DNA of 64,000 nt from Methanosarcina sp. Lineage in GTDB: Archaea > Halobacteriota > Methanosarcinia > Methanosarcinales > Methanosarcinaceae. A program made the position numbers and the translations under genes. The notes beneath the pieces were generated by a model. It was not told the origin of the DNA, searched no databases, and saw only the letters and a list, made by a program, of their open reading frames with translations. Shown piece by piece: positions 32,770-64,000 of the stretch. Every line of letters begins with the position of its first letter. Within the stretch, counting starts at the first letter, position 1. The stretch covers positions 1 through 64,000 of the forward strand of contig NZ_JAQUVZ010000007.1 of assembly GCF_028693135.1 (NCBI RefSeq), written 5' to 3'.

Positions 32770-33795
32770 TCAGCTATAGCCTTCTGCTTCATATTCTCTG
32801 AATCCGCTTGAATACACAAGCCTGTGGTCTTCGGTTATTATAAGGCATTCAACACCTTCGAGATTTTCTATCATTTCAAGCCCTTCTTCTTCTCCCATCA
32901 CGAAGACTGCAGTTGCAAAAGCATCGGCATCAATAGCGTTTCTGGCAATTACCGTGCCGCTAATAATGCCTTCTGAAGGATATCCTGTTCTCGGGTCCGA
33001 GATGTGGGACACTCTTGCCGACTCGTTAAAGTAACGTTCGTAGTTTCCACTTGTTGCTACTGCAACATCATGAGCTTCAATTGAAGTAACATATTGTTCG
33101 CTTCTGTCAGGGTTCTGAAGGCCTACCATCCAGGATGTGCCATCGGGCTTCTGACCTATGTATCTCCCGTCTCCTCCCGCATTTACAAAAGCGTTTTCAA
33201 TCCCATTCTCCTGCAAAGACTCGATTGCTTTATCAACTGCGTAGCCCTTTGCAATTCCTCCCAGGGCTACTTTCATCCCGGGTTTCAGGCTTACATCCCC
33301 ATCTTCGGTGCTTATTTCCGAGTAGTTTACGAGTTTGAGAGTTTCATTCAGTTCATCTGCAGTTGGAGGTTTCTGCGATCCTTCAGGGAGGAATTTACTC
33401 TTCCAGAGGTCAAGTACTGGCTGGATGGTGATATCAAAGGCTCCTCCGCTTTTCTCTGAATAGTACTTTGACTGCTCCAGCACGTGGACAAAGGAAGGGT
33501 CAGCATTTTCAACTTCTCCTTTTGTATTCAGGATATTAAGCTGACTGTCTTCTTTTGAAGGGCTCATAAGAGCGTCAATTTTGTATATTTCACTAAATGC
33601 ATCATCTATTGCCTTCAAAGCCTCACTTTCATTCGAAGCGTATACAGCTATCGTAACTGTAGTATCCATAGTGCTTCTTGTTTCTTGAAACTCCTGAAGT
33701 TCTCTATCCTCTTCAGGCTCAGGCTGTACACAGCCTGATACTAATATAGATATAATCAGTAAAAACGAAAATAGTATTTTGTATTTTGAATCCAT
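32770..33795 (-). CDS. apbE: FAD:protein FMN transferase ApbE (lipoprotein)
   Basis: 341 residues. A lipoprotein signal (IISILVSGC) anchors it outside the membrane. ApbE motifs are STMDTTVTIAVY, SGGAFDITIQPVLDLW, ALGGIAKGYAVDKA, NAGGDGRYIG and the metal-binding HISDPRTGYP and IDADAFATAVFVMG. ApbE attaches FMN to Thr/Ser of NqrB/C- and RnfD/G-type subunits. It lies next to, and divergent from, the mmcA-rnf operon, so RnfG and possibly RnfD are the obvious substrates. Confidence 0.93.
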   Translation of the reverse strand: MDSKYKILFSFLLIISILVSGCVQPEPEEDRELQEFQETRSTMDTTVTIAVYASNESEALKAIDDAFSEIYKIDALMSPSKEDSQLNILNTKGEVENADPSFVHVLEQSKYYSEKSGGAFDITIQPVLDLWKSKFLPEGSQKPPTADELNETLKLVNYSEISTEDGDVSLKPGMKVALGGIAKGYAVDKAIESLQENGIENAFVNAGGDGRYIGQKPDGTSWMVGLQNPDRSEQYVTSIEAHDVAVATSGNYERYFNESARVSHISDPRTGYPSEGIISGTVIARNAIDADAFATAVFVMGEEEGLEMIENLEGVECLIITEDHRLVYSSGFREYEAEGYS

Positions 33796-33887
33796 GCTCT
33801 ATCAATTTTTCCTTCTTGTTTTTTAATTTTGGGTTATTTTTATTATTCGATCCAGATGTTTCTTTTACGAAAGTCGAAGGCAGAAGG

Positions 33888-33907
33888 CCTGTTACTTTAG
33901 TGGCGGG
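33888..33907 (+). repeat. IS605-type right-end hairpin (solo)
   Basis: CCTGTTACT and AGTGGCGGG pair over 9 bp around a TT loop, preceded by GAAGG. It is a diverged copy of the hairpin at 34102 with compensating pairs. No tnpB ORF accompanies it. Confidence 0.45.
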
Positions 33908-34039
33908 ATGAATGCCGTCAACGTCCCATATTTTCGCTATCTTCTAACCTCTAAATACTATTCTGTCCTATACTATGTACTGAATTCCTAAGCGATAACC
34001 AAGCCAGGGAAACCAGAACCAATTTGATCTTTCTTCACC

Positions 34040-34127
34040 TCTGGAACAGAGGGTAGAGCCTGTGGACTTATGAACGGTAGTTTGAGGTATGAAGCAGGAA
34101 GCCCGTTACTTCAGTGATGGGTAGTTC
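34040..34127 (+). pseudogene. tnpB C-terminal tail with right-end hairpin
   Basis: The frame from 34040 reads GTEGRACGLMNGSLRYEAGSPLLQ and stops at 34115-34117. This GRACG...EAGSP tail is typical of IS605-family TnpB. The stop lies inside a 9-bp hairpin, CCCGTTACT/AGTGATGGG (34102-34121), followed by TAGTTCAC. The same end occurs at 63.7 kb. In intact elements this region is both the transposon right end and the 3' part of the guide (omega) RNA. The rest of the gene is gone. Confidence 0.6.
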
Positions 34128-35149
34128 ACTGGATCGGGGTAAAAATGAAATTGAAGGTGAAATTTGATTTTTATTCACTTCTTTGAGTACTTTTTTATTT
34201 TCAATGTTTTTTCATCTATTTTTTAACTCTGTCTTCTTATGTTCTATTTTTTGGTTTTTCTTTGTTGCCTCTTTTTATTGATATAAGACCTTTTATGTTC
34301 TTCCGATATTTCTTTCATTCTTTTTTTCTTTATCTTTTTAGTTGCTGCATTTATTCCTTGCTCTATGCGGAGCGTTCTATATTTATTCACTTTGATTTTC
34401 TGCTAGATTCATGATTAATGGTTAATAAATAATTAATTGTTAATTACTCTTATACGTTTATTAAATTTAATATATTTTATATGTTATACTATTTTTAAGG
34501 GGTTTATTCCTTTTCTTTGAAGGTTTTAATCGGATTCTTTTGCCAGGTTGGTTGAGATCTTCTGCAGGATTTTTAATGTATAATCATGTATATTTTCTCT
34601 GGAAAAATATATATATTAAGAATGTGTAAGTTTTTCCTTATATTTCAAATATTTTATATATTTGACCAATATATACAACCTACTATATATAAAGTATATA
34701 TTTTTATTACTTTATACAATTTGGGTCAATTCCCTCAAACTTATTTCGAAAGAAATAAGTATTACCTCACGCAAACATTTTTCGTTGAAGTGAAATTTAG
34801 CTTTGTTTTTCGGAGTAAAATGGCTATCTAAAGCAAGGACAGGAAAAAGCCGGTGATCAAAAAGCCTTCAGGGGAATCAATTATGCCAAAAAGAGCTAGG
34901 CTAGCCGTTCATGTCAGTTCCTTCTCGCTTCAGTTTTCCGTTTATTGATTTTCTTTCGATCTCTAGACGATGCCACTGGAGGTCTGGAAGGGGCGGCAGT
35001 GTATCCCCTGGATGTGTACGATTCAGCCGTAAATATCCTTCAATCTCATTCATTACTCAATAATAAGCTTCAAGTTGTTGAAATTTGAACTTTGTTTCTT
35101 TCCAAGCATGAACATAACAACGTGAACAAAAAAAGAGAATGTGGTCGTT
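34128..35149 (+). promoter_or_regulatory. Long AT-rich upstream region of the mmcA-rnf operon
   Basis: About 1 kb without a credible gene. From 34420 to 34720 it is extremely AT-rich, with several TATA-like runs (for example AAAATATATATATTAAG near 34603). The last 250 bp are more mixed in composition. It should contain the operon promoter and perhaps a long leader; the exact start cannot be placed by eye. Confidence 0.4.
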
Positions 35150-36649
35150 ATGAATAGGTTAAATCTGTTGGTGTCGGGAGTCGCTGTGCTGCTTCTCGTG
35201 GCTGCTGGTGCCTATTCTTCTCTTGGCTATGCAGGGAATGATCAAATTGCATCCCACTACATGACCAAGGGAGAATGGTCCGATACGGTCTGCGGAGGCT
35301 GTCACTTCGATGTCTACGAAAATGTCAATCATTCTTATCATGTACAGGTAGATATGGATCGATGGTCTCCCCTCACAAATTTTGATATTGAAACATCCGG
35401 AGAAGAGGAATGGGTCAAAGAATTCGGGAAGTACCATCCTGGTGGAGGTCCGCTTGCAGAATATGGTGTTGGCGTTGACTGTATGATGTGCCATGAGCAG
35501 CATGGTCTCTACGATTTCGAAGCCCGTGCCGAGAAAATTGAAAAGGGAGAATACAATGATGCAAACAGTGCAGCCATGGTAAAGTCCAGCCTTGCTGCAA
35601 GAACCAGTCCTATACAGTTTTTTGTCTACAATGCTAACCTGCTTACCCCCTATCCCTTGCTGATCGTTTTCCACGATGATGTAAATGGGGCTCCTATGGA
35701 ATCTTCCTGTGCCGAGAAATGTCACATCACCGATGTGGAAACGAGGGCTGTAGCCTGGGGCAGTGAGGAAACCTATGCAGAGTCAGATGCTCATGCCGCA
35801 AATGGCGTTGAATGTACGGAATGCCACCACACTGAAGGTTTCATCATAACCTCGGATCACCAGATAGGACGTGGAAACACTTCTGATTCCCCCGACCTTC
35901 CGGAGAGCCACTACGATGATACCATGCGCAGTTGTGATGACGCTGCGTGCCATGCAGGTATCTCTCACGGTCCATTTGCTGACTCTCACATGGAATTCCT
36001 TGCCTGTGAAGCCTGTCACATCCCTGAGCTTCCGGGAGGAGACCTACCGGGCGGCAAGCCACTTGAATCTTTCAGCTGGCAGAATGGAGAACGTGAAGAT
36101 GTTTACCGGGAAGCAGACTTCCAGCCTGCCCTTGCCTGGTACAACGGAACCTTCGGCGATGTCCTGCCAAGCGTGGATACAAGGAATGACACAGGTGTAA
36201 TGCTTACCCCGTTCAACAATATTACTGGAACCTGGTGGGACGCAGGTACTGACTCTGAAGTGCTTGCAAATCCGGACACAAGCATCTCCACTGGAGACCC
36301 GATCCCTGAACAGTATGTGAAGGCAGCGGATTCCAACGGTGATGGTGAAGTAACAGTGAACGAAATGCAGGCTTACGATGCCAACGGAGACGGAAAGCCC
36401 GATTATCCGAATGCGGTCCTGAGGACAGTGGAACTTTATTATCAGGTCGCTCATAGCATTGTCAGCAAAGATGTGGGAATTTCTTCTCCTCTGACCTGCA
36501 GGGACTGCCATGGAAGCAAAGCCGTTATTGACTGGACATCTATAGGTTATGTAGAGGATCCGGGAGGAGACTCAGCAGCCGCAAAAAGCATCGCTGTTAC
36601 CTATCCCAGGCCGAAACCTGTAGAGGTTGAAACGAAACCTGCACTGTAA
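35150..36649 (+). CDS. mmcA: Heptaheme cytochrome c MmcA
   Basis: 499 residues from the ATG at 35150 (GTG at 35141 is possible). Signal peptide with a long hydrophobic core ending GYAGNDQ. Seven heme-binding motifs can be counted: CGGCH, CMMCH, CTECH, CEACH and CRDCH of standard spacing, CAEKCH with one extra residue, and CDDAACH with two. Many further His residues can act as distal ligands. In M. acetivorans this protein is part of the Rnf electron path to methanophenazine and can support extracellular electron transfer. rnfC follows 14 bp later. Confidence 0.95.
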   Translation: MNRLNLLVSGVAVLLLVAAGAYSSLGYAGNDQIASHYMTKGEWSDTVCGGCHFDVYENVNHSYHVQVDMDRWSPLTNFDIETSGEEEWVKEFGKYHPGGGPLAEYGVGVDCMMCHEQHGLYDFEARAEKIEKGEYNDANSAAMVKSSLAARTSPIQFFVYNANLLTPYPLLIVFHDDVNGAPMESSCAEKCHITDVETRAVAWGSEETYAESDAHAANGVECTECHHTEGFIITSDHQIGRGNTSDSPDLPESHYDDTMRSCDDAACHAGISHGPFADSHMEFLACEACHIPELPGGDLPGGKPLESFSWQNGEREDVYREADFQPALAWYNGTFGDVLPSVDTRNDTGVMLTPFNNITGTWWDAGTDSEVLANPDTSISTGDPIPEQYVKAADSNGDGEVTVNEMQAYDANGDGKPDYPNAVLRTVELYYQVAHSIVSKDVGISSPLTCRDCHGSKAVIDWTSIGYVEDPGGDSAAAKSIAVTYPRPKPVEVETKPAL

Positions 36650-63163: not shown

Positions 63164-63233
63164 AACTTACTTATCTTAACTTACTTATCTTAACTTACTT
63201 ATCTTAACTTACTTATCTTAACTTACTTATCTT
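63164..63233. repeat. 14-bp tandem repeat, five perfect copies
   Basis: AACTTACTTATCTT repeats exactly five times without spacers. Confidence 0.95.
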
Positions 63234-63298
63234 ATTTTTCAATATCAATAGGTTTGAAACGAAAAAAAATTGTATTGAGTTATGCAATGATACAATTT

Positions 63299-63365
63299 AT
63301 CTCCCGAAGTGGGAAGACTCCTTCCTCGGACAATCCGGTAGAACCGGATCGGACAGGTGGGAGAT
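63299..63365 (+). ncRNA. Structured RNA candidate
   Basis: ATCTCCC (63299-63305) pairs with GGGAGAT (63359-63365). This encloses GGAAG/CTTCC (63312-63325) and ATCCGGT-AGA-ACCGGAT (63333-63349). An 8-bp inverted repeat AATTGTAT/ATACAATT lies directly before it. The nested stems make a stable three-way fold. It is not a tRNA. Either strand could be transcribed. Family not recognised. Confidence 0.4.
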
Positions 63366-63492
63366 GAGAGCGTCAACCTCTAATCTTATCGTTTTTTAAT
63401 TCTGAAAATCTATTTCAACTTTGCGGATAATATAATATTAGATTTTGCTGTCACCACTAACCTACCGCTTTCTAAGGTTCCCTTCATAACTT

Positions 63493-63760
63493 ATGCGAAA
63501 ACCAAGCGAAGGGAACTTAAGCATCAGGCAGTTGGATACCAGAGGCAAGAATCATCCTGAAGGGATCGGGATTAAGCCGTGGAAAGACGGTAGTCACAGA
63601 ACATCTCAAGTATATCACACTCATGTTTTCACCGTAGGGACAACGGGTAGAGCCTGTGGACTTGGAAAAAACGGCAACCACCAAGCATGAAGCAGGAAGC
63701 TCCGTCCTCAAAAACTTGAGCTATTAAGCGAAAGTTTTAGGGAGGGGTAGTTCACATTGT
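63493..63760 (+). pseudogene. Decayed tnpB tail with IS605 right end
   Basis: The frame from 63493 ends in VGTTGRACGLGKNGNHQA at 63690. The next frame continues KHEAGSSVLKNLSY, so a frameshift interrupts the usual GRACG...EAGS tail of TnpB. The DNA then forms a hairpin from CCTCAAAAACTT and AAAGTTTTAGGGAGG and ends GGGTAGTTCAC, as at 34.1 kb. The 5' part of the gene is missing. The following 63761-64000 shows no gene I can support. Confidence 0.55.
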
Positions 63761-64000
63761 TTCGAGCAATATATAATCTGGTCTGGCACTCTCTTTTACG
63801 GGTCCAGACGTTTAATCCCTCTAATCCGGAAGGGTGCCGGGTTATCGAGGTTCTGTAGTTATGGAGGGGGTCTAATTTCATGGGGCTAAAACGGGTTTAC
63901 ATATCCGTTTCTTTACGGGTCAAAGATATTGCTGGAAAATTTCAGCCTGTTCATTAATCTCAGTTTTTGCTCCGATGTCTGGACATTAGCTCAGGCTAAC

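Follow-up and report, generated by a model that had tools for sequence, protein, structure and literature searches.

How might two similar hairpins have come to lie in the 1.3-kb spacer between an apbE gene and a multihaem cytochrome gene of Methanosarcina? We considered this question for a window of 64,000 nucleotides (the whole stretch of DNA that was analysed) from a Methanosarcina sp. genome of 4.22 Mb in 89 contigs. A first-pass annotation had taken the hairpins for two solo right ends of IS605 elements, the second with a tnpB tail, in which pairing had been kept by compensating base changes after loss of the gene, and had suggested that these ends might be reused in rnf regulation. Both arm pairs (CCTGTTACT with AGTGGCGGG, and CCCGTTACT with AGTGATGGG) were found where they had been placed (Table 1). 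The tnpB tail was also confirmed. Positions 34035-34129 are an 82% match to the 3′ end of a tnpB element whose 421-aa frame is open, and the former stop codon of tnpB sits in the right arm of the second hairpin.

When the genome was searched with positions 33850-34160, 42 matches were obtained, among which are 14 full or nearly full copies, that of the window included. The 13 further copies of 33869-34129 match it at 94-98% in four cases and at approximately 81-86% in the remainder; PATE copy C56 is split by an insertion of ~230 bp, and PATE copy C54a carries an insertion inside its left hairpin. Among the copies aligned with their flanks, homology extends from just 3′ of TTTAC to TTCAC, and none is found outside. 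Because the copies share these limits, we deduced that the unit is 261 bp long and that the hairpins mark its left and its right end, respectively, rather than two right ends; its border lies at 34129, and not at 34127, where the annotation had closed. TTCAC forms the right end in all 14 copies of this genome. On the left, TTAC precedes 18 of the 21 element starts examined and TTTAC 15 of them (19 and 16, respectively, once L011 is moved by one base), the exceptions to TTAC being L083 and L023. Two other genomes also hold the element: G008 has eight long copies together with three partial or split ones, and G010 has two, in which the match lacks the first 28-41 bp.

Table 1. Features of the element, of its right end and of the neighbouring genes, in window coordinates.
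Feature	Position	Strand	Basis or remark
apbE	32770..33795	-	PF02424, E 4.4e-86; 73 bp separate the start codon from the element's left end
Target TTTAC at the left junction	33864..33868	+	In the empty site, would serve as the TAM as well
Complete non-autonomous IS200/IS605-type element (PATE), 261 bp	33869..34129	+	Copies, copies in two other genomes, empty site
Left-end hairpin (first hairpin)	33888..33907	+	CCTGTTACT-TT-AGTGGCGGG
13-nt remnant of tnpB RuvC-II codons	33992..34004	+	GCGATAACCAAGC; pattern GCGAWAACCARGC
Former 3′ end of tnpB, up to the stop codon	34035..34117	+	82% match to tnpB element L023; frame read from the sequence
Omega-RNA-like stem 1	34038..34052	+	Loop GAAC
Omega-RNA-like stem 2 around stem 3	34059..34098	+	34059-34063 with 34094-34098, around 34067-34075 with 34080-34087
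Right-end hairpin (second hairpin), omega-RNA-like stem 4	34102..34121	+	CCCGTTACT-TC-AGTGATGGG; loop -20 to -17; doubles as the end hairpin of IS605 type
GTTC, pseudoknot partner of the stem 1 loop	34124..34127	+	99.1% of cells paired
Predicted 16-nt guide, flank of the insertion	34130..34145	+	TGGATCGGGGTAAAAA; guide length from PMC8612924 (available text)
Multihaem cytochrome gene (mmcA-like)	35141..36649	+	TIGR04314, 874 bits
rnfC, after the cytochrome gene	starts 36664		NF041837 rnfC_Methano, 656 bits

To what kind of element does this unit belong? No ORF of at least 60 aa overlaps 33869-34129, a length too short for a transposase; near-terminal palindromes related to those of IS605-type elements are present at both ends; a short, fixed target adjoins the left end without target duplication, TTTTAC being present once in the empty site; and the dispersed copies have common limits together with an empty site, which was checked for the window copy. 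With regard to the palindromes, the left hairpin folds as RNA at -12.5 kcal/mol within a 36-nt stretch (z -2.55) and the right one at -16.3 kcal/mol within a 38-nt stretch (z -3.99); under DNA parameters neither is the predicted fold (left, z +0.89; right, z -1.29 via another pairing). In the accessible part of PMC3119063, the PATEs (palindrome-associated transposable elements) of Haloquadratum walsbyi are described as being of non-coding length, without terminal inverted repeats, and with near-terminal IS605-like palindromes, a short targeting sequence and no target duplication; in one type, a C-terminal portion of the parent's coding region is included, the palindromes are attacked by repeats of ~110 bp, and similar left and right hairpins are reported for IS605-type elements and PATEs alike. 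In all of the traits listed there the Methanosarcina element is like them, and it differs in its host, its sequences and its target TTTAC (PMC3119063, same part). The 261-bp element thus belongs to a known kind, PATEs as in Haloquadratum. We consider it highly probable that 33869-34129 is a gene-less IS200/IS605-type element that is mobilised by TnpA in trans; this judgement covers the element and its mobilisation, and the guide-RNA step discussed below is graded on its own.

The element seems to derive from a tnpA/tnpB element by internal deletion. Of this parent it retains the left end, a small tnpB remnant, and the final ~95 bp, made up of the tnpB terminus and the right end. Because the same gene-less body is present in other copies, we deduced that this copy came without the gene, and loss of the gene at the window locus is unlikely. 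The proposed compensating base changes between the two hairpins could not be upheld: pairs 3, 4 and 5 differ (T·G to C-G, G-C to G·T, and T·G to T-A), and because all three are altered on one side, via G·U, the number of pairs altered on both sides is zero. Unlike this comparison of left with right, comparisons between copies of the right end do contain two-sided changes.

The insertion is recent. A match to apbE at E<=1e-60 was found in nine of 30 genomes of the genus, its own included, and the element is absent from the apbE locus in all eight relatives with apbE (one 14-base chance match aside). The joined flanks align unbroken in four of these eight, and the sister species G011 (locus L066) has the precise empty site TTTTAC-TGGATCG, without duplication. 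This precise empty site in a sister species, together with the lack of the element in the eight relatives, shows that the element inserted here recently, with its right end ~1 kb from the cytochrome and rnf genes.

Relatives that still bear genes are present elsewhere in the genome. In C43 and C54, related left and right ends flank an open 421-aa TnpB frame with the Pfam domains OrfB_IS605, TNB and HTH; RuvC D/E/D and zinc-ribbon motifs are found in two 421-aa tnpB frames, and intact tnpB genes are present in trans. C43 is preceded by CCTAC, not TTTAC, and the left hairpin of C54 holds a ~115-bp repeat with inverted ends, to which we return below. A further element, C47, combines tnpA with tnpB. 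Its left end is close, as judged by eye, to the left ends of PATEs C50b and C56, the 21-nt hairpin at its right end recurs unchanged in PATEs C4 and C7, and C47 is the only tnpA element of the genome whose ends match PATEs. The frame of its tnpA (L025:2408-2797) stops at a TAA where an intact, 78%-identical relative in G013 has TAT (Tyr), a residue that we take to be the catalytic tyrosine of Y1 transposases. The left end of the G013 tnpA element is 83% like that of the PATE over 47 bp. The remaining two tnpA matches, C36 and C77, have open frames; at E<=1, neither locus matched the PATE ends (that of C36 being truncated at a contig end). The tnpB-only elements (C43 and C54) and the tnpA-tnpB element (C47) are like the PATE in having related ends and the same right-end fold, and unlike it in coding for TnpB (C47 also for TnpA) and in the sequence of stem 3, which in intact tnpB elements differs from that of the PATE.

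What has been retained in the right end? Its last ~92 nt can be arranged into stems 1-3, the reported right hairpin as stem 4, and a pseudoknot. In an alignment of 29 right ends from six genomes, in which gene-less and tnpB elements are combined, 98.4% of the 504 cells of stems 1-3 are paired, and two-sided changes occur at 10 of the 18 pairs; none of 500 shuffles, a control that leaves kinship in, reached so high a value, and sliding the partner reduced pairing to 44-56%. Stem 4 is paired in 103 of 112 cells over 14 distinct hairpins (one gap moved by hand), compared with a mean of 83.4 and a maximum of 99 in 2000 whole-arm shuffles; a two-base deletion in this hairpin of L094 speaks against complete pairing of the stem. 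Between the stem 1 loop (GAAC or GGAC) and the GUUC just before the guide, 99.1% of cells are paired, a pseudoknot that has little support from covariation because two of its four pairs are invariant and none is altered on both sides. In the window copy, a T in stem 3 gives a G·U pair. A search of Rfam yielded no match at E<=1 in 33000-35500.

The right ends were collected by a motif search that required GTAGTTCAC-like tails and were aligned as A1 (28 rows) and A3 (29 rows). Because the tail was required, copies without it (e.g., L085 and L088-L091) are outside both alignments. Among the right ends that the motif search did find, L015, L093, L094 and L099 and the duplicate loci L032 and L034 were left out of A1 and A3, and C54b, a row of A1, was dropped from A3 for an internal duplication.

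A covariance model of the right end gave 45 matches at E<=0.01 in its own genome, and matches at E<=0.001 in all 30 genomes of the genus, its own included. When the best 30 of the 45 were compared with seven TnpB sequences by tblastn, a tnpB match lay within ~700 bp in three cases and in none of the other 27; nine of the remaining 15 adjoin tnpB genes or fragments, as judged by position. Over all 45 right ends, 12 have tnpB beside them (fragments included) and 33 do not, a ratio to be read with the bias of the top matches towards gene-less copies, since the model was built mostly from PATEs. In the 27 gene-less right ends, 97.5% of the cells of stems 1-3 are paired and 12 of the 18 pairs show two-sided changes, in an alignment (A4) that was fitted to the model and so leans towards its pairing. 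Here, too, none of 500 shuffles was as high, and both shuffles and slid partners fell far below. By a simple motif rule, the pairing of the stem 1 loop with GTTC is complete in 20 of the 27; in the other seven it is partial or unread, and in three of those the model stops before the true end. The idea that pairing outlived the gene therefore stands at the level of the family, in these 27 gene-less right ends, although not as reuse for rnf. The covariation search that had been proposed for the hairpin gave a strong result across the family of right ends, and one that extends beyond that hairpin.

This arrangement bears a close resemblance to the omega-RNA of ISDra2, and our model of the right end had been built before it was compared with that structure. 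In the available part of PMC10097598, the solved ISDra2 omega-RNA has four stems; the 3′ strand of stem 2 occupies -35 to -32, positions -20 to -17 form a loop of sequence UUUA, and -5 to -3 pair with the stem 1 loop as a pseudoknot. The window copy has stems 1-4 in the same order and position as ISDra2, and the pseudoknot too: the 3′ strand of stem 2 spans -36 to -32, the loop likewise occupies -20 to -17, and -6 to -3 take part in the pseudoknot. As in ISDra2, the scaffold would consist of the tnpB 3′ end and the right end, the guide would come from the flank, and the TAM would equal the transposon target (PMC10097598 and PMC8612924, as far as accessible). The loop reads UUCA in the window copy and UUUA in both the old PATE subfamily and ISDra2 (PMC10097598, same part). 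Against the 116 nt of ISDra2, the scaffold here is ~92 nt long with a shorter stem 3, and because of this shorter stem its 5′ parts are nearer to the guide. Unlike ISDra2, the element is without tnpB, and its omega-RNA is predicted from sequence.

How might such an element move and persist? By its family, a Y1 transposase (TnpA) acting in trans would recognise both end hairpins and move the element as single-stranded DNA. The right end, if transcribed, would furnish the TnpB omega-RNA scaffold with the 16-nt flank TGGATCGGGGTAAAAA as its guide, and this role as a scaffold would be why its shape has been retained. In the model for ISDra2, TnpB is guided to the emptied site (PMC8612924, available text), a model that we apply here in trans: TnpB made elsewhere would cut the emptied donor site TTTAC-TGGATCG and so help the element to persist, and its own copy would be spared because TTCAC, not TTTAC, adjoins the guide. 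The guide fits the element's own ancestral empty site, and the one other place in the genome where TTTAC is followed by the first seven guide bases matches it at 7 of 16 positions. The structure would then be upheld by the needs of the element during its spread, and not by the host at the apbE locus, with the rnf genes as bystanders. We read the window element, on balance, as a substrate of TnpA in which a guide-RNA scaffold persists; to the guide-RNA step, by analogy an omega-RNA scaffold with its guide serving TnpB in trans, we give roughly even chances.

Three other explanations have to be set against this reading. According to the first-pass annotation, two independent solo right ends had degraded separately between apbE and rnf, a view that has the likeness of the two hairpins in its favour. 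Both ends co-occur in the same order in the aligned copies, however (the left hairpin of C54a being interrupted), and the first type of hairpin is also the left end of tnpB- and tnpA-bearing elements; the alignment of copies rules this view out, and we attach practically no credence to it. Might the host have adopted the element, or an RNA from it, as a regulator of apbE or of the cytochrome and rnf genes? RNA-guided regulators of TnpB origin are known as TldR. That such regulators exist (PMC13418256, accessible part), and that the left end lies so close to the start of apbE, speaks for this possibility. Against it are the lack of the element at this locus in eight of eight relatives, the distance of 1 kb to the start of the cytochrome gene, the location of 13 further copies elsewhere, and a guide that fits the ancestral empty site and otherwise finds only the TTTAC-plus-seven-base site with 7 of 16 matches. 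We therefore regard host adoption as very improbable and have rejected regulation of rnf, the role once suggested for these hairpins, and of apbE, in view of the recent insertion and of a search for TTTAC with the first seven guide bases in which no second guide target was found.

More serious is the possibility that the element is an ordinary PATE with a silent right end, in which the hairpins are kept as DNA for TnpA, what remains beyond them is residual tnpB, and no RNA is produced or used; this accepts the element as described and denies the RNA step alone, and we judge it somewhat short of an even prospect. End hairpins suffice for mobility, the core 13-mer is a tnpB remnant, and two-sided changes within the PATE family alone are found at 2 of 40 predicted pairs, a weak covariation; moreover, the stem 2-3 block is as variable as the rest within the young subfamily (0.042 vs 0.035-0.093 elsewhere, with the first 26 columns and the invariant tip excluded). 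The first 26 columns are unreliable because of inserted or unrelated sequence in L016, L082, L086 and L087. Yet stems 1-3 and the pseudoknot lie outside the end hairpin, and stems 1-3 are preserved in the 27 gene-less ends, with two-sided changes at 12 of their 18 pairs. Between the young and old PATE subfamilies, likewise, the stem 2-3 block differs by 4.7%, whereas the stem 1 block differs by 10% and the other blocks, from the left to the right hairpin, by ~10-39%. The last nine bases are invariant across the subfamilies, and within the old subfamily alone the stem 2-3 block is among the lowest, at 0.018. This comparison covers 11 young and 7 old copies and excludes L013 (a mosaic), L020, L022, L085 and L088-L091.

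The strongest covarying changes distinguish one family from another, and they may date from a time at which tnpB had not yet been lost. Constraint on the spreading lineages, with drift of single copies once inserted, is a reading that fits these patterns. Recombination is a live alternative for the low difference in the stem 2-3 block, because copy C4 switches from young to old there: this mosaic PATE (L013, G000:C4:14464-14725) has a body of the young type and a right-end hairpin of the old type, which suggests recombination between copies.

What had been reported as a regulatory curiosity is thus an ordinary mobile element, and the covariation shows that the omega-RNA fold is retained in full by IS605-type elements without a gene. 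Stand-alone omega-RNAs exist for IscB, and work on Geobacillus TnpB reportedly concerns PATEs. Our searches of the open literature brought up no paper recognised as dealing with Methanosarcina PATEs or with stand-alone TnpB guide RNAs from this genus. For the Haloquadratum PATEs, an omega-RNA fold with covariation in the right end is not discussed in the accessible part of PMC3119063, and in the available text of the literature consulted we met no description of such a fold in gene-less right ends. A concrete question can now be posed: is TnpB guided in trans by many gene-less elements? It is doubtful, in our view, that Methanosarcina genomes should harbour numerous mobile guide-RNA units without a gene, namely PATEs and their relatives with right ends that act as functional omega-RNAs and load TnpB supplied in trans by a few intact elements. 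If it were so, each insertion would program a guide against its own empty site, the non-autonomous elements would parasitise or share the homing system of TnpB, and the role of TnpB in transposon maintenance would have to be counted per element or as shared.

The 13-nt remnant within the element drew attention to a different candidate. The pattern GCGAWAACCARGC occurs 24 times in the genome and zero times when read backwards; by position, eight occurrences lie in tnpB matches and 16 in gene-less elements. A hairpin at this pattern was considered as a new conserved "core" RNA domain of PATEs and was rejected, the sequence being a remnant of tnpB RuvC-II codons. In 12 diverged tnpB genes (L023, L025, L035, L037 and others), nearly all have the codons GAA AAC CAA, with major-codon fractions of 0.91, 1.00 and 1.00 for the RuvC-II Glu, Asn and Gln, respectively, vs a mean of 0.62. 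A wider set of tnpB genes includes the variants GAG, GAC and AAT, and stems of at least 5 bp occur around 29% of random places in the window; because of these two observations, we make no claim for codon constraint or for a hairpin.

Further repeats accompany these elements. A repeat of ~115 bp, which has inverted ends AGGCTGTCCGACAATT and is flanked on either side by TTTA, interrupts IS605-type end hairpins at their apical TTTA loop; it was found at L024 ~1294-1413, L082 ~494-612, L086 ~235-355, L096 ~240-361 and L016 ~587-706, and it has 31 matches in the genome. It resembles the SMR-A repeats of Haloquadratum, which target PATE palindromes (PMC3119063, accessible part). For the 20 of its 31 matches that have loci, the flanks were joined, and 12 of the 20 fold at <=-8 kcal/mol vs 42 of 815 TTTA sites of the window; by a stricter ungapped count of arms, these sites were not above shuffles.

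At 63300-63760 (+), the window contains another gene-less element of this general kind, which is longer and terminates in GTAGTTCAC. Its right-end scaffold begins at 63623 (R1, 49.5 bits), and the tnpB remnant motif, at 63495-63507, lies within an 11-bp stem. The candidate of a known Rfam RNA at 63200-64000 was dismissed, as GEBRO alone was hit, with 12.5 bits against a gathering score of 284.7, which we took as chance. Another repeat family of ~400 bp, apparently gene-less as well, was seen at L025:1123-1168, L026:1179-1224, L027:1260-1305 and approximately ten more places; it has a related left end, CAGGAAGCCCTGTTGCTTTAGCGCAGGG, and in L027 its right end is TAGTTGAC.
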